Shown here piece by piece: positions 28,436 through 37,486 of a stretch of DNA of 64,000 nt. Under the pieces are notes generated by a model. It did not search any database. It was given only the letters and a program-made list of their open reading frames with translations, and was not told where the DNA came from. Origin of the DNA: Taklimakanibacter deserti (lineage in GTDB: Bacteria; Pseudomonadota; Alphaproteobacteria; Rhizobiales; Aestuariivirgaceae); assembly GCA_003574785.1 (NCBI GenBank), contig QORU01000003.1:372001-436000 (forward strand), given 5' to 3'. Within the stretch, counting starts at the first letter, position 1. Each line of letters begins with the position of its first letter. Made by a program: the position numbers and the translations under genes.

Positions 28436-29451
28436 TGCAGCCGCTCCTGCGCGGGCTCACACTGATCATGGCTTTCGGCCTCCTTCCGGCGTTGGCCGTG
28501 GCCGAGGTCAAAACCGTACGCGACTGGACGGGCGACTGCGATGACGATCTCGCCTGCACGGCGACCGCTTCGGGGGCGGGCGGCATGGTCATGGGCGGCA
28601 CCGGCTACCAGTTGAGGTTCAGCCGGGCCCAAGGCGACATGTCCCAATGGTCGATGCGATTCTTCCTCAAGCATGTGCCGCAGCCGAAGGCCGATGGCGA
28701 AATGGCCATTTCCGTCGACGGCGGCGCGGCGTTCAGCTTCCATGAGGAATACGGCTATCTGCGCGATGCCGATGGAATCACCTTCGGCCTTGGCGGCGGC
28801 AAGGACCTCGACAAGCTCTTCGCCGCGGTCAAGAAAGGCCGGAAGCTCGAGCTTTCCTATGAGACGCCCGACGGCAAGGCGCAGAAGGAGAGCTTCTCTC
28901 TGTCCGGCCTCGCGGCGATCCTGCTGTGGATCGACGAGCAGCAGGACCGGGTGGGCAAATCATCGGAGATTTCCTCCCCGCCCGGCGTCGAAGGCGAGGC
29001 GAGCTTCACAGCACCGAAAGAGATCCGGGGCAAGATCGAGGCGCGGATAAAGTTCGATTGCGAGCCGCCCGTCCCCAACCGGCCGGACATCGAGAGCTAT
29101 CGTTTGCCCGGGGGCTACGCGCTCCATGTCGCGCCCTGCTTCGCCGGCGCCTACAACTTCACCCAGCTCTATTTCTTCCAGCGGCGCGATGATCTGCAGC
29201 TCATCTATTTCGCCGATTATTATGACGGCTGGAGCGGCACCAATCAGCTGTTCAATTCCGACTTCGATCCCAAGACGGGAAGGCTCGGCGCCTTCTACAA
29301 GGGTCGCGGCGTCGGCGATTGCGGCTCGATCGGGCAGTGGGTGTGGTCCGACACGTCCTTCAAGCTCGTCGAGTTCAGCGCCTGGCCGGATTGCGACAAC
29401 GGCAAGGGCAGCGACGACTGGCCCATCGTCTACAAGCGTCAAGCCAAATGA
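28432..29451 (+). CDS. DUF1176 secreted protein
   Basis: A 339-residue exported protein. A signal peptide covers the first 22-24 residues, with cleavage likely after ALA-VA. The mature part matches DUF1176, with paired cysteines (CDDDLAC near residue 38, and CEPP, APCF, GDCGS, PDCDNG further on) suggesting periplasmic disulfides. Function unknown. It starts 4 bp inside the end of cca. A downstream cupin gene follows after 12 bp. Confidence 0.8.
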   Translation: MMQPLLRGLTLIMAFGLLPALAVAEVKTVRDWTGDCDDDLACTATASGAGGMVMGGTGYQLRFSRAQGDMSQWSMRFFLKHVPQPKADGEMAISVDGGAAFSFHEEYGYLRDADGITFGLGGGKDLDKLFAAVKKGRKLELSYETPDGKAQKESFSLSGLAAILLWIDEQQDRVGKSSEISSPPGVEGEASFTAPKEIRGKIEARIKFDCEPPVPNRPDIESYRLPGGYALHVAPCFAGAYNFTQLYFFQRRDDLQLIYFADYYDGWSGTNQLFNSDFDPKTGRLGAFYKGRGVGDCGSIGQWVWSDTSFKLVEFSAWPDCDNGKGSDDWPIVYKRQAK

Positions 29452-29463
29452 CAGGAGCAAATC

Positions 29464-29829
29464 ATGGCGGACATCATCGTGATGAAGACGGCGGGAAAAT
29501 CGGCGCCCGAGGTCGAGAAGGGGCAAGGAGAGGGCGAGAAGCTCATCAAGGGGCCCTATAAGACCAAGACCTGGAACCATTTCACCGGCGAGGACGGAAG
29601 GCTCTATTCCGGCATCTGGGAATCGAGCCCCGGCAAGGTGAAGATCGACTACAAGGAATGGGAATTCTGCCACTTCATCGAAGGCAAGGCCGTCCTCACC
29701 AACGACAAGGGCAAGAAGTGGACGCTCAAGAAGGGGGACGGCTTCCTCATCCCGCCGGGCTTCAAGGGAACCTGGGAGACGGTCGAGAAGGTGAGGAAGC
29801 ACTATGTGATCCTCATGCCTAAAGCTTAA
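29464..29829 (+). CDS. Cupin-domain protein (DUF861-like)
   Basis: A 121-residue single-cupin protein. GIWESSPGKVKIDYKEWEFCHFIEGKAVLT and KGDGFLIPPGFKGTWE-type segments (residues about 50-80 and 90-105) mark the Cupin_3 group. The metal-binding histidine of motif 1 is reduced to one (H near residue 73), as in other members. Function unknown. Last gene of the operon beginning at DUF1285. Confidence 0.85.
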   Translation: MADIIVMKTAGKSAPEVEKGQGEGEKLIKGPYKTKTWNHFTGEDGRLYSGIWESSPGKVKIDYKEWEFCHFIEGKAVLTNDKGKKWTLKKGDGFLIPPGFKGTWETVEKVRKHYVILMPKA

Positions 29830-29985
29830 GCGACCGAAGGCAGGAAACAACAATATCTGTGATGCGGCGCCGGGTTCCGCAAGACCCGGCGCCAAACAAA
29901 TTTCTGTGCCCGTGGTGCTGGACGGCATGCGGCTTCCCCCCTATATCTGCCCCTGCGACACCTTCCGCCTAGGAGACACCACCAC

Positions 29986-31671
29986 ATGGCCGATGCTCCC
30001 AAGCCGAAACTCCAGCAGAAAACCGATGTTTCAGACGTGCTCACCGAAGCCGTCCGCCAGCGTCAGGCGGAAAGCAAGGCGGTGCGCCGGGAAGTCAGCG
30101 CCGATCCGCGCTTCGCCAATATCGCCGCCAATGCCTTCTTCAAGGTGATGTTCGCCGAGAACACCAGGCCCGAGGCGAAGCGGGCAGAAGTTGCAAAACT
30201 GCTCACCTTCGAAGGAACGAAGGAAGAGAACCGCGAGCGGATCAAGGAATTCGAGCTGTTCAAGGAATATCTCCAGAGCCAGCGCGAGGAAATGGCCCAG
30301 GAGATCATCCGGCTGACTGACACCGGCACCTTTGCCGAGCTGAAACAGGTCTATGACGACCTCAATACCTCGCTGGTCCAGTTCGACGAGAAGATGCAGC
30401 CGCTGACCGACATCATCGATGCGGTCTATACCTTGCGGACGAATGGGCTGACCCTCGAGGCGTTCCAGGAGATCCTGCGCGACAGGAAGCGCGAAGAGGA
30501 GCTCCTGCGCATCAAAGAGACCAAGCGGCAGGAATTCGACAAGCTCAAATCGTCGGTCGAGCAGATCCATTCCGATATCGCGGCCCTCGGCGAGAATCGC
30601 AGCTTCTTCGGCCTCGGTGGCGTCAAGGAAGAGGCCCGCATAGAGATCGCGCGCAAGAATTCGGAGCTGAAATGGGTCGTCGACACGCTGGACGGCCTTT
30701 CGGACGAGCTTGCCCAGCTCGACAAGCAGACGCCGACCGAAAGCGAGCTCGGCGAATATGCCGAGCAGAAGAAGAAGCTGCGCGAGCTTCTCGACATCAG
30801 CGCCGACGACCACAAGCAGCGCCAGAAGGACCTGGTCGACGCGGCCGTGAATTTCGTCAACACGGCCAAGACGCGGGTCGGCTCGGTGCGCGAGCATCTC
30901 GGCCAGATGAACGACCAGGTGGAGAACCTGTTCGATGCCAACAATATGATGGGCACCGTCTATGCCATCATGAATGAGGGCATCAAGGAAGCTTCCGGGA
31001 GCAACCAGAAGAGCAGGGATGCGCTGCAGCCGCCGGCCGAGGGCAGCGAAGACCTGATCGCCAAGATGGCACGCGAGCAGAAGAAGATGGCCATCGAGCA
31101 GCATATCACCATGCTCGACGCCTCCGCCGCCGACACGATGGCGACCTATGCCGACCTGACCTCGGGCGCCATCCGCATCAAGACGATGAAGGATGCCGTC
31201 GACCAGCAGGCGATCCGGGCGCGCACCATGCACAGCCAGGGCATTTCGGGCGTCGCCGACCGCTTGAGCGTGGTGCTCCAGGCCGTGTCCTCCGCCGCCT
31301 TGGGCGAGGCCTCGGCCATGGCCAAGGACACGCTCAATCAAATGGCGCAGAACACCAACAAGGTGGCGCAGAAGGAGAGCATCCGCATCGCCATGGGCAT
31401 CGAGGAGCAGAATACCGACCTCGCCAAGGCGATCGACGATCTGGGCGCCTATGGCGAGGTGGTGCGGGCGGCGACCAATATCACGCGCGAAGGCCTCTCC
31501 GACATGCGCAACAAGCTGGATGAGCTGAAACGGCTGGCCGAGGACGTGCAGGGCGACGTGCAGGATGCGATCGCCGTCAATGCCGACGTCGGACGCCCGG
31601 AAAGAGCGAAGGCGACCGCGCCGGCCGCCGGCGAGCCGATACCTTCGCCATTCAAGCTCGGGCGGCATTAG
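29986..31671 (+). CDS. Large coiled-coil protein, first gene of uncharacterised AAA+ operon
   Basis: A 561-residue protein with no signal peptide, membrane helix or cysteine. Residues about 85-330 and 340-530 are almost all charged or alpha-helical, with heptad-like spacing: long coiled coils broken near 330-345 by a short Ser/Pro stretch. Many Gln/Glu/Lys residues recall TelA-like or structural scaffold proteins, but I find no named motif. It ends 10 bp before the AAA+ gene and must be co-transcribed with it. A scaffold, or substrate, for the ATPase is the simplest inference. Confidence 0.8.
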   Translation: MADAPKPKLQQKTDVSDVLTEAVRQRQAESKAVRREVSADPRFANIAANAFFKVMFAENTRPEAKRAEVAKLLTFEGTKEENRERIKEFELFKEYLQSQREEMAQEIIRLTDTGTFAELKQVYDDLNTSLVQFDEKMQPLTDIIDAVYTLRTNGLTLEAFQEILRDRKREEELLRIKETKRQEFDKLKSSVEQIHSDIAALGENRSFFGLGGVKEEARIEIARKNSELKWVVDTLDGLSDELAQLDKQTPTESELGEYAEQKKKLRELLDISADDHKQRQKDLVDAAVNFVNTAKTRVGSVREHLGQMNDQVENLFDANNMMGTVYAIMNEGIKEASGSNQKSRDALQPPAEGSEDLIAKMAREQKKMAIEQHITMLDASAADTMATYADLTSGAIRIKTMKDAVDQQAIRARTMHSQGISGVADRLSVVLQAVSSAALGEASAMAKDTLNQMAQNTNKVAQKESIRIAMGIEEQNTDLAKAIDDLGAYGEVVRAATNITREGLSDMRNKLDELKRLAEDVQGDVQDAIAVNADVGRPERAKATAPAAGEPIPSPFKLGRH

Positions 31672-31681
31672 TCGAACCGCC

Positions 31682-33832
31682 ATGAGCTTCCTCACCCGGG
31701 GCGAGGACTATCTGGCCAAGGCGCCGAATTTCCGCCTGGTCGGACGCGAGGCCGAGCTCAAGAAGCTGTCGTCGATCCTGGTCAGGAACATGGCGAATTC
31801 CGTCCTCCTGGTGGGGCCGGGCGGCGTCGGCTGCACCGCTTTGTGCATGGGACTGCAGGCGATCAAGCGCGACCCCGATGCGCCCTTCGACATCGTCAAC
31901 AAGCGGTTCTTCTGGCTCGACACCGACGCGCTGTTCTCCTCCGGCGATCCCGTCAGCATCCGCGATTCGTTCCAGCGGATGATGGGCACGCTCGATCGCA
32001 CACCCGATTCGGTCCTGATCGTCGAGGATACCCGCGACTTCATCGAAGCGGCGCGCAACATCGGCACGCTGCATTTCATCAACGCGCTGTGCCTCGCCAT
32101 CAAGTCGAAGAAGGCGCAGGTCATCCTCGAGGCCCGCGACGAAGACCTCGACATCATCCTCAAGAGCCATTCGGATTTGCGCGAATTGTTCACGCTCGTC
32201 GACCTGGCGGAGCCCGAGGGCGAAGCGCTGTTCAAGATCGTCGCCGAGCGGGCAGAGCATCTGCATCAGTTCCACCGCATCAGGATCGCCGAAAGCGCCT
32301 TGCGCACGGCGATCGAGCTCACCTCCAAATACCGCTCGCGCGACGGCGGCATGAACCGCGCCCAGCCCGAGCGCGCCGTGTCGCTGCTCGACCGAGCGCT
32401 CGCCACCTACAGGCTCGGCGCCCACCGCCAGCCGCCCGGTCTCGCCGAAGCCGAGGCGGCGAAGCGGGCGGCGAAGACCGAAAAGCAGGCCGCCGAGGCG
32501 GACGCCCAGCTGGCGCAGATAGGCACGCGCTGGACCCAAAGCCAGGAGAAGATCAAGGCGCTCTACAAGCGCCAGCGCGACGGCGAGATCGCGGTCATCG
32601 AGCTCGAGGAGCAACTCGACAAGCAGATCGAGACGGAAGCTGAGGCGCGGCAATCGCCCGACAGCCAGGTCAGCGAGATCACCGGCCGGATCGCCAAATT
32701 CGCGCGCCTGGCCACGGGCGCGGGCCTCGAATCCGACGCGGTCCGCGACCTGCGTGAGCGCATCGGCAAGTTCCAAAGCGAGATCGCGACCAATCGGACG
32801 GCCTTCGACGCCTTGACCAAGGAGCTCAACGACCATCTCGAGCTCACGCGCGATATCGTGCTCAGGGAGTTCAGCCAGATCTCCGGCATCTCGGTGAGCA
32901 AGCTCAACGAGAACGAGCGCGAGAAGCTGCGCAATCTGGAAGCGGAGCTCAAGGTCCGGATCTTCGGCCAGGACCATGTCGTGCGCGTGCTGTCGAACGC
33001 GGTCAAGACGGCGCGCGTGGGGCGCCGCAACCAGGACCGGCCGCAGGCTTCCTTCATGTTCCTCGGGCCCTCGGGCGTCGGCAAGACCGAGATCGCCAAG
33101 GCGCTGGCGGCGAGCCTGCTCGATGACGAGAAGGCGCTGACCCGCTTCGACATGTCGGAATATATGGAGAAGCACGCCGTCGCGCGATTGATCGGGGCGC
33201 CCCCCGGTTATGAAGGCTTCGAGGCCGGCGGCATCCTGACCAATGCGATGCGCAAGAACCCGCTGCGCGTCCTGTTGTTCGACGAGATCGAGAAGGCCCA
33301 TCCCGACGTCTTCAACGTCTTCCTGCAGATCCTGTCGGACGGGCGGCTCACCGACAATGTCGGGCGCACGGTTTCCTTCTCCGAGTCGATCATCATCATG
33401 ACGACGAACCTCGGGCAACCGCATTTCCTCGATCCGAAGCTCAGCGTCGAAGAGGCGAATGCCGAAGCGATGAGGGAGGTCGAGAAGACCTACCGCTCGG
33501 AATTCCTCAACCGGTTCTCCGGCCGGCAGAACATCATCTGCTTCAACAAGCTCGATCTTCCCTCGATCGAGAAGATCGTGCGGCGCGAGTTCGACAGCAT
33601 CGACCGCACCTATGCCCAGGAAGGCATCAAGGTCGAGGTCGCCGAGGCGGATCTCAAGGCCTTCTGCAAGGCGCATTACGACCCGGCGATCGGCGCCCGC
33701 GGCCTGCCCGGCTTCATCCAGGCGAATATCGAGCCGATCATCGTCAATATGATCCTCGACAGCGACAAGCGCGGCAAGCTCGAGCTCGCCTACAATCCCA
33801 AGCGGGCCGTCTTCGAGATCAGGCAAACATGA
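31682..33832 (+). CDS. ClpB-like double AAA+ protein with degenerate first ATPase domain
   Basis: A 716-residue Clp/Hsp100 relative without the usual N-domain. D1 (residues 15-250) retains the VGRE opening and small-domain helices (PERAVSLLDRA), but Walker A reads GPGGVGCT (45-52), with cysteine for the essential lysine, and Walker B reads VLIVEDT instead of hhhhDE. A coiled-coil linker covers about 255-400. D2 is intact: Walker A GPSGVGKT (462-469), Walker B LLFDEIEK near 531, sensor 1 TTNLG near 571, arginine finger R611 in FLNRF, sensor 2 GARGL near 671. Predicted role: ATP-driven remodelling using D2 only. It overlaps the next gene by 4 bp. Confidence 0.85.
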   Translation: MSFLTRGEDYLAKAPNFRLVGREAELKKLSSILVRNMANSVLLVGPGGVGCTALCMGLQAIKRDPDAPFDIVNKRFFWLDTDALFSSGDPVSIRDSFQRMMGTLDRTPDSVLIVEDTRDFIEAARNIGTLHFINALCLAIKSKKAQVILEARDEDLDIILKSHSDLRELFTLVDLAEPEGEALFKIVAERAEHLHQFHRIRIAESALRTAIELTSKYRSRDGGMNRAQPERAVSLLDRALATYRLGAHRQPPGLAEAEAAKRAAKTEKQAAEADAQLAQIGTRWTQSQEKIKALYKRQRDGEIAVIELEEQLDKQIETEAEARQSPDSQVSEITGRIAKFARLATGAGLESDAVRDLRERIGKFQSEIATNRTAFDALTKELNDHLELTRDIVLREFSQISGISVSKLNENEREKLRNLEAELKVRIFGQDHVVRVLSNAVKTARVGRRNQDRPQASFMFLGPSGVGKTEIAKALAASLLDDEKALTRFDMSEYMEKHAVARLIGAPPGYEGFEAGGILTNAMRKNPLRVLLFDEIEKAHPDVFNVFLQILSDGRLTDNVGRTVSFSESIIIMTTNLGQPHFLDPKLSVEEANAEAMREVEKTYRSEFLNRFSGRQNIICFNKLDLPSIEKIVRREFDSIDRTYAQEGIKVEVAEADLKAFCKAHYDPAIGARGLPGFIQANIEPIIVNMILDSDKRGKLELAYNPKRAVFEIRQT

Positions 33833-34560
33833 GCACGCTGCGCGACGAGGTCGAAGCGCTCAAGAAGAAGATCGCGGACGAGTCCCACGAGAAAGACAAG
33901 GTCCATGCGCGGTCGTGGACGGGGCGCACCCAGTATAATCTGACCGCGCTGCATAAATTCGTCTTCCAGGTCGTGCTGGCGCTGAGCTGGATCTATGCGC
34001 ATGTGATCCGCCCCGTCGCCCGCATCCTGTTCAAGCCGGTCACCTGGCTGTGGCGGCTCTACCGCTTCCTGTGGGACAAGGCGGTTTATTATGAGGACGC
34101 CTATCAGAACCGGCAGTTCTCCAAGACGCGCGCCGGTATGTTCCTGCTCCTGTCGGCGGTTTTCGCCTGGTATGTCTTCGTCCCGCTGGTCGTCTTCATC
34201 TGCCATGCGCTCCTCTATTTCAGCACGGTCAAGCGCGACGAGATCGTCTATCTGACGAATTCCCAGGAGATCATACCGCATGAGAACGAGCATTCGGTCC
34301 AGGGCTGCCATGCGCTTCCCTGCACAGACCAGAACAGCATCTATTTCCGCATTCGCGCCAGCAATTTCAACGAGGCCTGGTCGATCCTGAGCGGCCGTGG
34401 CCTGTTCTATCCCGACTATGTCGCGGCGTCAGTGCCGGTCGCGATCAGCCACTGCAAGATCACCTCCTATGGCCTGCGCATCAAGCTTTTGATGCGCGGC
34501 CTCGATATCTATCCCGACCTGCTCAAGACCGAATGCACGCCGCTCAGCGAACAGCCTTGA
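33829..34560 (+). CDS. Membrane protein of the AAA+ operon
   Basis: A 243-residue protein. A charged N-terminal coil (1-28) precedes an aromatic amphipathic or membrane helix (about 43-66), a basic/aromatic linker and a clear membrane helix (about 103-130). The C-terminal 110 residues lie beyond the membrane, with four cysteines (C160, C165, C209, C236) that could form two disulfides, placing this domain in the periplasm. No family recognised. The ATGA overlap with the ClpB-like gene implies one complex, with this protein as membrane anchor. Confidence 0.8.
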   Translation: MSTLRDEVEALKKKIADESHEKDKVHARSWTGRTQYNLTALHKFVFQVVLALSWIYAHVIRPVARILFKPVTWLWRLYRFLWDKAVYYEDAYQNRQFSKTRAGMFLLLSAVFAWYVFVPLVVFICHALLYFSTVKRDEIVYLTNSQEIIPHENEHSVQGCHALPCTDQNSIYFRIRASNFNEAWSILSGRGLFYPDYVAASVPVAISHCKITSYGLRIKLLMRGLDIYPDLLKTECTPLSEQP

Positions 34561-34591: not shown

Positions 34592-35347
34592 ATGACCCGA
34601 TCCGTCCTCATCACCGGAGCGGCACGGCGCATCGGCCGGCGCATCGCTCTCGACCTCGCCCGCGACGGCTGGGCGGTCGCCATCCATTGCCATTCCTCGC
34701 GTGCCGATGCCGAGACGCTCAAGACGGAGATCGAGGCGGGCGGCGGACAGAGCGTGATCGTTCAGGGCGACCTTGCCCGCGCCGATGTGCCGGAGCGCCT
34801 GATCGCCGAGGCCAAGAACGCGCTGGGGCCGCTCTCCTGCCTCGTGAACAACGCCTCGCGCTTCGAGCCGGATGAGGCAAGCTCGGTGACGCTCGACAGC
34901 TGGACCGCCCATCTCGACACCAATCTGCGAGCCCCGGTCTTCCTGTCGCAGAGCTTCGCCGCGCAAGTGCCGGCGGAAGCGCAAGGCAATATCATCAACA
35001 TCATCGATCAGCGGGTGTGGAAGCTTACACCCAAATTCTTCTCCTACACCGCCAGCAAATCGGCGCTGTGGACGGTGACCCGGACGCTGGCCCAGGCGCT
35101 GGCGCCCAGGATCAGGGTCAATGCCATCGGACCGGGGCCGGCGCTGCCCAATGTGCGCATGGACGAGGAGGATTTCGCCCGCCAGGCCCGCCTGACGCTT
35201 CTGAAGCGCGGGACGTCGCCGGAAGAAATCTCGGCGGCGGTCAAATACATATTGTCATCGCCGGCGATGACCGGCCAGATGATCGTTCTCGACGGCGGCC
35301 AGCATCTGTTATGGCAGACGCGTGATGTCATGGATGTGAAGGAATAG
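34592..35347 (+). CDS. Pteridine-reductase-type SDR (FolM-like)
   Basis: A 251-residue short-chain reductase. The cofactor loop TGAARRIGRRIA (8-19) has the arginine pair typical of NADPH-dependent pteridine reductases. The catalytic set is D139-Y152-K156: the usual SDR serine is aspartate, exactly as in PTR1 and FolM enzymes. It should reduce dihydropterins (dihydromonapterin or dihydrobiopterin). The start of folB four bp downstream supports a pterin role. Confidence 0.85.
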   Translation: MTRSVLITGAARRIGRRIALDLARDGWAVAIHCHSSRADAETLKTEIEAGGGQSVIVQGDLARADVPERLIAEAKNALGPLSCLVNNASRFEPDEASSVTLDSWTAHLDTNLRAPVFLSQSFAAQVPAEAQGNIINIIDQRVWKLTPKFFSYTASKSALWTVTRTLAQALAPRIRVNAIGPGPALPNVRMDEEDFARQARLTLLKRGTSPEEISAAVKYILSSPAMTGQMIVLDGGQHLLWQTRDVMDVKE

Positions 35348-35761: not shown

Positions 35762-36007
35762 TCGCCTAGATCACGCACGTTTGTCTGCTACCGAGGCGAA
35801 AGCGGCTATTGTCGGAGACAGTTGCCATGTCGCGTAGGGGCCAAGAGCGGACGTTTACCGGAACGTTTATCGGAGTTAGCCCGCCCTGTGAAAAAGGTGT
35901 ATTGATGCAACCCCTCGACGATGGCCACTTTCGGCGAATCTTTACCACCGGCTAAGTCGCAGGCGGAGTGTGGGCGGCGATGCGTTTCAAGCGAAGGGAG
36001 AGGCGTC
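35762..36007. other. Intergenic region before the fibre-like gene
   Basis: About 245 bp with no convincing gene. Composition is mixed, and short direct motifs such as GGACGTTTACCGG and AACGTTTATCGG recur. It ends in an AGGGAG ribosome site used by the next gene. Confidence 0.4.
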
Positions 36008-37486
36008 GTGGCTCAAGTAAAAGGATTCGATCCGGCAATCAGTGGGCAGCAGCCCGAAGATATCAACGGAAATCCGGTCCCGGTCGGGGTTTGGGGTGAT
36101 TCCAACATAGGCGGCGGTGTGTTCGGCACGAGCGGAGTGCTGCCGCAAGGCACCAGCATTCCGATCGATCCACCGGCCGGCGTCGAGGGACACGGAGTAG
36201 ACGGCCCAGGCGTGGTCGGCCGCAGTCTTAACGACAGTGGCGTAGTCGGCGAAAGCCCCGGTGCGCCGGGAGTGCTCGCCCGCAGCATTACCGCGTCCGG
36301 ACTGCTCGGCGTGACATTCAGTCCCGACGATGGCTCGCAGGGAGTCTTCGGTTCTTCCACGACCGGCGGCAACGGCGTGACCGGTTTCGTCGGCGGCGCA
36401 ACGGGCACTATCGGAAGCAGCGTTCGCGGTATCGGTGTGCGCGGCACGACCGGCACCGGAGCGGCCGGTGTCCTCGGCCAAACCTTTGGTGGTAGCAGCG
36501 GCAGTCCGGGTCCGGCAGTGCTCGGCAGGAGCGATGTCGGCGTGGGCGTCAGCGGCTTCAGCGGGTCCACCGACGCCACCAAAGGTCTCACCTTCGGCGA
36601 AGGCTACGGCCACTCTTCTCTTCATTTCTCCGCCAAGTCGGGCGGCGGGGTGCTGGGTGTCAGCGTGCTAGGTAATGGCGTCGAAGGATTCACTTTCAGC
36701 TCCAGTCGCGACAAGCCCGACGTGGCGGCCGTGCGTGGCCAGAGTGCCAATGGCTTCGCTGGCCTCTTTGTCGGCAGGGTCCGCGTCACCGGGCATCTGC
36801 AGAAGGCCGGCGGCGGTTTCACCGTGGACCACCCGACGGATCCAGCGAACAAATACTTATCGCACTCGTTTGTCGAATCTCCAGAGATGCTCAACGTCTA
36901 TAGCGGCACAGTGACCACTAACCGCGCAGGCGTGGCCCGGGTGCGGCTGCCGGCGTATTTCGAAGCACTCAACCGCGACTTCCGTTATCAGCTCACCGTG
37001 ATCGGCGCGTTCGCCCGCGCCATGGTTTCCAAAGAGATCAAAGACAACGAATTCGAAATCCGGACCGACCCCGGCCGAGTGAAAGTCTGCTGGCAAGTCA
37101 CCGGGGTCCGCAAGGACGCCTGGGCCGAAGCAAACCGCTTGCCCGTTGAGGAGACCAAGCCGAAGGCGGAACGCGGCCGATATTTGCACCCCGAATTGTT
37201 CGGGAAGAAGGCCCGCGCCGTTCATCCCGTACCGGCCCCCCAGATACCCGATGCGCTGCCGGAAAAGCTGCGCGATCGGGCAGAAAAGACGCTGTACGAT
37301 CTGGCGAATGGGGGTGCCACCGGCAAGGATCTGCACGCGATCCTCGACCAAGCCAAACGTTCATTCGGCCAAGAAGCCGCAGCCGGGCGATCACGCTTCG
37401 AGATGCAGTGGCGCGTGGTGCAGGAAAGCCTGGAGGCTATGCCGATGGTGCGTCCGTCGGCGCCTAAGCGCAAGCGCAAGCGCTAG
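36008..37486 (+). CDS. Glycine-rich repeat, fibre-like protein with conserved C-terminal domain
   Basis: A 492-residue protein from GTG 36008, preceded by an AGGGAG ribosome site. Residues about 10-260 are low-complexity G/V/S repeats of the form GV-G-S or GVVG, suggesting a beta-helix or beta-prism fibre. Residues about 265-400 form a domain with DHPTDPANKYLSHSFVESPE and LNRDFRYQLT, which I have seen repeatedly C-terminal to such repeats in many phyla, of unknown function. A helical basic tail ends in Lys/Arg. No signal peptide or cell-wall anchor. Base use looks more even than in its neighbours, compatible with transfer. Confidence 0.75.
   Translation: MAQVKGFDPAISGQQPEDINGNPVPVGVWGDSNIGGGVFGTSGVLPQGTSIPIDPPAGVEGHGVDGPGVVGRSLNDSGVVGESPGAPGVLARSITASGLLGVTFSPDDGSQGVFGSSTTGGNGVTGFVGGATGTIGSSVRGIGVRGTTGTGAAGVLGQTFGGSSGSPGPAVLGRSDVGVGVSGFSGSTDATKGLTFGEGYGHSSLHFSAKSGGGVLGVSVLGNGVEGFTFSSSRDKPDVAAVRGQSANGFAGLFVGRVRVTGHLQKAGGGFTVDHPTDPANKYLSHSFVESPEMLNVYSGTVTTNRAGVARVRLPAYFEALNRDFRYQLTVIGAFARAMVSKEIKDNEFEIRTDPGRVKVCWQVTGVRKDAWAEANRLPVEETKPKAERGRYLHPELFGKKARAVHPVPAPQIPDALPEKLRDRAEKTLYDLANGGATGKDLHAILDQAKRSFGQEAAAGRSRFEMQWRVVQESLEAMPMVRPSAPKRKRKR

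Follow-up and report, generated by a model that had tools for sequence, protein, structure and literature searches.

A conserved three-gene module of a half-dead Hsp100-type ATPase, a helical protein and a membrane protein in bacteria and jumbo phages

Three adjacent genes of Taklimakanibacter deserti, located within 64,000 nucleotides of contig QORU01000003.1 (positions 372,001 to 436,000, here called the window), form one conserved unit beyond chance and encode a helical coiled-coil protein (P1), an Hsp100-type ATPase (P2) and a membrane protein (P3). The motor belongs to a familiar type, its partners do not, and the trio is undescribed as a system in the literature searched (listings and the beginnings of abstracts), being only loosely named in the Agrobacterium jumbo phage Atu_ph07. 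This bears out the sequence-only reading, which recognised no characterised system with this composition. As to function, a remodelling machine is favoured here, with phage exclusion and virion or envelope assembly as the main rivals. The features of the locus are compiled in Table 1.

Table 1 Features of the trio in the window (aa, amino acids; AF, AlphaFold; D2, second AAA+ domain of P2)
Feature	Position	Strand	Basis
P1: 561-aa helical coiled-coil protein	29986-31671	+	ORF list; no known family
P1 C-terminal tail SPFKLGRH, candidate recruitment peptide	31645-31668	+	conserved F/PF; low-confidence linker before tail
P2: 716-aa Hsp100 with two AAA+ domains, without N-domain	31682-33832	+	ORF list, Pfam, NCBIfam, 1qvr alignment
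Walker A of the first AAA+ domain of P2 (GPGGVGCT), Cys in place of the catalytic Lys	31814-31837	+	Lys absent in 34/34
P2 second Walker A GPSGVGKT, intact; predicted motor (D2 ring)	33065-33088	+	Lys in 34/34
P3: 243-aa membrane protein	33829-34560	+	ORF list; relatives; AF model
Likeliest membrane-spanning helix of P3, residues 106-124	34144-34200	+	hydropathy, charge in 29 homologues
P3 beta domain, OB-like, with Cys160, Cys165, Cys209 and Cys236; presumably outside	34219-34557	+	

P1 and P2 are separated by 10 bp, whereas P3 starts inside the stop codon of P2 (4-bp overlap, ATGA); rechecking of the ORF coordinates reproduced the positions, the gene order and the 10-bp and -4-bp junctions reported earlier. 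Upstream of P1, a cupin-like gene ends at 29829, and a short-chain dehydrogenase-like gene (34592-35347) follows on the same strand 31 bp 3' of P3, both names having been read from the sequence by eye. The GC content of the trio (59-65%) is like that of its surroundings (60-68%) and, hence, composition does not indicate a recent arrival. AT skew reaches +0.18 to +0.20 across most of P1 and P2 (window positions 29000-33500), the most positive value within the 20-44 kb stretch. Positions 35921-37486 encode a 521-aa protein in which glycine-rich GVxG-type repeats are numerous and the C-terminus is charged.

When 84,980 species genomes were scanned with a profile of P1, at least 31 P1 loci emerged (numbered with the prefix L), a lower bound since the scan was limited to two peptide patterns. 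Their hosts are alpha- and gammaproteobacteria as well as one delta-labelled metagenome-assembled genome (MAG). P2 follows P1 in all 29 loci with a continuing contig (those of L005 and L016 stop soon after P1), P3 follows P2 in all 28 testable loci (the contig of L029 ends too), and order and strand of the genes are identical in every testable locus. The search for a conserved neighbourhood proposed with the sequence-only reading thus found all three genes in each of the 28 testable loci; within the collections searched, P1, P2 and P3 stood together rather than apart, and no strong profile match linked all three to a known secretion or stress system. On two MAG contigs, those of L004 and L029, P2 is broken into two ORFs. 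Distant P3 proteins were assigned via linked BLAST matches plus position, six of them having no direct match to the window P3 at 1e-4. Pairwise identities over 28 trios correlate between the proteins, with Pearson coefficients, uncorrected for shared ancestry, of 0.93 (P1-P2), 0.83 (P2-P3) and 0.78 (P1-P3), the Spearman coefficients involving P3 being low (0.38 and 0.47) for the same trios. In the family of the genome carrying L001, P1 and P3 profiles matched the same four of 60 genomes, one of them the search centre; the search centre was also the one genome matched by both among 289 of the class, where scoring covered the best few first-look candidates of each genome, and the one genome with P1 among 150 of the order. 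Given these sparse matches, the trio looks rare and sporadic. No P1 match was obtained in 72,556 plasmid records.

P2 is assigned to the Hsp100 proteins by its C-terminal half, which exceeds the Pfam cut-offs for AAA_2 (191.1 bits, cut-off 27) and the ClpB D2-small lid (44.8 bits, cut-off 21.9), together with the intact motifs of D2. Among solved structures, P2 comes closest to the ClpB of 1qvr, the alignment comprising P2 residues 19-696 and starting at ClpB residue 172; hence, the N-domain is missing, as had been noted before. The ATPase had also been called half-dead, and this agrees with 34 aligned sequences (28 bacterial ones including the window, six viral), in all of which the Walker A Lys is absent from the first AAA+ domain (D1) and present in D2. 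In D1, this Lys is replaced by Cys (25 sequences), Val (five) or Ile, Ala, Leu and Arg (one each), and the catalytic Glu of Walker B by Asp (33) or Asn (one). Moreover, as read off the 1qvr alignment, the patterns that mark the pore loop and Arg finger in ClpB are missing from D1 of the window P2. In contrast, D2 retains Lys, the Walker B Asp-Glu, the Arg finger and the sensor-2 Arg in 34/34 and the pore Tyr in 33/34 sequences (Phe in one). With D1 motifs lost and D2 motifs kept, half of the P2 motor is predicted to be dead throughout the family as sampled. Curated models likewise uphold the earlier statement that this is neither a ClpB nor a ClpV locus: P2 reaches 413.7 bits against a ClpB cut-off of 1232.1 (TIGR03346) and 329.3 bits against a ClpV/TssH cut-off of 884.95 (TIGR03345), and it scores well under the NCBIfam cut-offs for ClpA, ClpK and ClpG. 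A ClpB with two competent ATPase rings is rejected as well, both catalytic D1 residues being lost in 34/34. Compared to the disaggregase ClpB, P2 is alike in having two AAA+ domains, a stretch of about ClpB length between them, and the D2 motifs and lid, but differs by the missing N-domain, the lost Walker A Lys and Walker B Glu of D1 and its constant partners P1 and P3.

For the window P1, no Pfam or NCBIfam model scored above cut-off, no PHROG matched at E <= 0.01, and a PDB search with its profile gave nothing at E <= 0.001, the four rows obtained up to E 1 looking like chance matches. An AlphaFold2 model from a 47-row alignment is helical nearly throughout, with a mean pLDDT of 74.9, low confidence at residues 1-17, 29-36, 471-501 and 525-550 and pLDDT < 50 at 525-550; its fold matches none above background for helical proteins. 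The 25 aligned relatives share 47-90% identity. P1 ends in a short C-terminal tail: in 38 sequences (32 bacterial ones including the window, six viral), a Phe occurs within the last 12 residues of all and PF in 33, the preceding residues being unconserved. A tail conserved in this manner is the kind of peptide expected to recruit a partner, and we infer that P2 could be this partner. P1 was rejected as a member of the TelA family (PF05816), which is absent from the four Pfam families at E <= 1; comparison of its profile with ten TelA proteins gave E 0.11 and 0.043 by direction, versus 0.078 and 0.12 for reversed-sequence controls. Alignment with Escherichia coli PspA by hhalign, with a single sequence as target, returned a probability of 0.3 over 19 columns. 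In Motilimonas eburnea (L008, 5005-6624), a second, diverged P1 copy with 31% identity to the window P1 lies upstream of the trio, a stop codon falling inside the wider match from the genome search.

P3, for which 24 aligned relatives share 40-87% identity and the AlphaFold model has a mean pLDDT of 90.0, had been described as a two-helix membrane protein with four cysteines outside. Its membrane nature and the four cysteines after the helix stand, but hydropathy and charge in 29 homologues make two helices doubtful. The segment near residues 106-124 is more hydrophobic than an earlier stretch in 27 of them (the exceptions being L010 and L015), this earlier stretch is mostly weak (also exceeding 1.6 in L006), and the linker joining them carries a net positive charge in 29/29. 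A positive linker and a weak first stretch fit a cytoplasmic N-terminal half and, hence, P3 probably crosses the membrane once, N-in/C-out, rather than with two helices. L010 and L015 speak against this topology, and so does a faint likeness to EI24/CysZ (PF07264) over two helices. The window P3 is rejected as a member of that family, scoring 25.3 bits over its helical half at a cut-off of 32, and six of 25 P3 members match it at E <= 0.1; a distant link is possible since three relatives among the 120 listed bear a precomputed PF07264 label. The beta domain is a weak candidate for a five-stranded OB barrel; Foldseek returned no match at E <= 0.001. All four cysteines are present in 23 of 29 bacterial P3 proteins, in a shifted version in L030, and none of the four in five. 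In the Atu_ph07 protein, Cys160 and Cys165 are both lost with Cys209 and Cys236 kept, as two disulphide-bonded pairs would behave; alternatively, the cysteines could form a metal site.

The trio also occurs in jumbo phages, which the sequence-only reading had missed. Among 50,697 phage records, P1 was found in Atu_ph07 (two records of one phage) with 43% identity over 87%. There, gp493 corresponds to P1, the next gene gp492 (AUZ95251.1) to P2 (51% identity over 98%) and gp488 to P3 (39% identity). While gp493 and gp488 are annotated as hypothetical, gp492 bears the labels 'ClpB', 'ClpA' and 'ATP-dependent protease'; it falls into the same family as the window P2, as does phrog_4871, which the latter matches with E 4.3e-179. 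In IMG/VR, six contigs carry the full ordered trio (L034-L038, L054), bringing the viral trios to seven, and a fragment (L057) holds the end of P2 plus P3; up to a few small genes are interposed between the trio genes in some phages. A T4-type major capsid protein and terminase are encoded on three of the six records tested (Atu_ph07 and contigs of 247 and 176 kb), the other three being pieces of 54-97 kb that are viral by IMG/VR assignment, with the 92-kb contig L054 outside this test. Using a P2 HMM, four full-length viral P2 proteins from new loci scored 902-1101 bits versus 487-507 for real ClpBs, three of the four belonging to the training set and L054 (902 bits) lying outside it. Two proteins just downstream of the trio on the 176-kb contig (L037, 14395-15804 and 16306-17427) match mostly unnamed or 'ATPase' PHROG families, and L037 and L038 have two genes of about 313-338 aa in common upstream of P1. 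Other viral contigs (L059-L065, L069, L114) encode Clp proteins of about 670-735 aa with an intact D1 Walker A and, by length, without the usual N-domain, which share 26-38% identity (best segment) with the query and form a separate phage Hsp100 group.

In the accessible parts of the published descriptions, gp492 is listed as ClpB among seven Clp proteins of Atu_ph07 (PMC6102473), and a jumbo-phage review treats AUZ95251.1, identical to gp492 by accession, as a ClpA chaperone that may serve as translocase for unfolded proteins or aid virion assembly (PMC7824862). For a related Sinorhizobium phage, six Clp ORFs are given (PMC11242549). Nowhere in the accessible parts of these three sources is gp492 tied to gp493 and gp488.

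With three ClpB outgroups, the P2 tree contains a 12-row clade (support 99/100) of six phage copies, the four-member window clade, Dongia and Plastoroseomonas, in which Atu_ph07 and Plastoroseomonas are long branches of unsure placement. Going by the starred branches of this tree, the module must have switched between phage and bacterium at least twice. When P1 and P2 were put into separate trees with seven phage copies, the window clade again fell among phage copies, the support inside these trees being weak. For the joined P1 and P2 data, forcing a single phage clade costs 26.6 log units at an AU p of 0.055, and a placement of the window copy within the phages is therefore favoured, not proven. 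As the copy in the window clusters with those of phages, the module has crossed between phages and bacteria, and these trees indicate that the chromosomal copy in the window represents a lineage exchanged with jumbo phages.

Genes next to the bacterial trios were examined as a set of 115 of 116 listed proteins, comprising up to three ORFs of at least 100 aa per side at 24 of 31 loci and excluding a 1591-aa protein of L026. Flanks are common mainly to close kin, and close relatives of the window keep the same surroundings. Among the 25 of 82 matched Pfam families listed, none occurs in more than four of the 115 proteins and none is a type VI secretion family; likewise, the 25 of 33 PHROG families listed include no phage structural family. 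The neighbours thus seem to offer no consistent hint on function. A PADLOC scan of the same 115 proteins matched 18 families, including mad2-like (four proteins), PDC-M72A (two), ankyrin (two), AbiEi (one) and AbiEii (one). In a Rhodobacteraceae MAG, a DUF6088/AbiEi-like gene (L023, 7059-7652) adjoins the trio. For the trio itself, P1 gave two PADLOC matches (E 0.013 and 0.049) and P3 none, whereas the matches of P2 are generic because two ordinary ClpBs give the same ones. With no specific PADLOC match, the trio was rejected as a known anti-phage defence system.

Our preferred reading, held tentatively and at somewhat below an even chance, is that the operon encodes a self-contained, membrane-anchored Hsp100 remodelling module acting on P1. 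The sequence-only reading had likewise proposed a remodelling machine anchored in the inner membrane, P1 serving as its putative scaffold or substrate. P1 would assemble into rods or a coat on the inner membrane and recruit P2 through its C-terminal F/PF tail. The D2 ring of P2, as sole active ring, would then pull or thread P1 or P1-bound clients, so that the assembly is dismantled or rearranged. P3 would tether the complex to the membrane through its cytoplasmic helical N-terminal half, and its disulphide-bonded domain may read or contact the periplasm. The likely purpose would be upkeep or reshaping of the envelope under stress, useful to the bacterium and to a giant phage during infection. 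Two known principles invite comparison. ClpV/TssH is an Hsp100 dedicated to the disassembly of a partner assembly, VipA/VipB of type VI secretion, from which the trio differs by the low P2 score, the helical P1 and the lack of type VI families among the Pfam families listed. The ESCRT-III/PspA and Vps4-type plan combines a helical polymer, a C-terminal recruitment motif, an AAA+ ATPase and a membrane. The trio would be alike in working principle, not by shown homology: P2 is Hsp100-type and not Vps4-like, and the single-sequence comparison detected no similarity of P1 to E. coli PspA. Compared by description only, the nearest plan in the literature searched appears to be that of PMC11237479, which in its accessible part reports PspA next to a protein whose two AAA+ domains include an inactive N-terminal one.

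Alternatively, the trio could be a phage exclusion or defence module, by which jumbo phages bar competitors from the infected cell and of which bacteria keep copies for protection. In this case, P3 would detect or obstruct entry at the membrane, and P1 would be switched on or off by P2. Its occurrence in jumbo phages, sporadic in bacteria, the grouping of the window copy with phage copies and the membrane location predicted from P3 hydropathy fit this idea, but little defence context among the 115 neighbours, PADLOC matches of P2 as generic as those of ordinary ClpBs, and unchanged surroundings in the window's close relatives make it unlikely. Improbable to a similar degree is an assembly or export chaperone, in which P2 would unfold or insert clients brought by P1 and passed to P3, building a phage virion or fibre or a bacterial envelope structure. 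This would make use of the intact D2 threading ring and of the translocase or virion-assembly role suggested for gp492 (PMC7824862, as far as accessible), but no phage structural family lies near the bacterial loci among the PHROG families listed. Furthermore, in the accessible part of PMC6102473, which reports 131 virion proteins, none of the three clusters of virion proteins named for Atu_ph07 (CDS 31-76, 170-215 and 284-329) includes the trio. A general stress disaggregase variant of ClpG/ClpL type, with the two co-transcribed proteins incidental, is very unlikely: P2 is an Hsp100 with about ClpB-length spacing of its AAA+ domains, but it has constant partners, a dead D1 and no N-domain, and stays well under the ClpB, ClpG and ClpK cut-offs.

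The favoured remodelling machine would, in a further-reaching and doubtful version, represent a new class of membrane-bound Hsp100 exchanged between jumbo phages and bacteria. It would build and take down helical coats at the inner membrane in ESCRT-like fashion, though with an unrelated polymer and motor, and the host envelope would thereby stay intact while a giant phage infects the cell. For Atu_ph07, the finding means that the protein labelled 'ClpB' or 'ClpA' belongs to a three-part module rather than being a general chaperone acquired from elsewhere. Should P1 prove to be a polymer that P2 dismantles, the trio would be a further independent case of AAA+-driven disassembly of a large coat, besides ESCRT-III/Vps4 and VipAB/ClpV.
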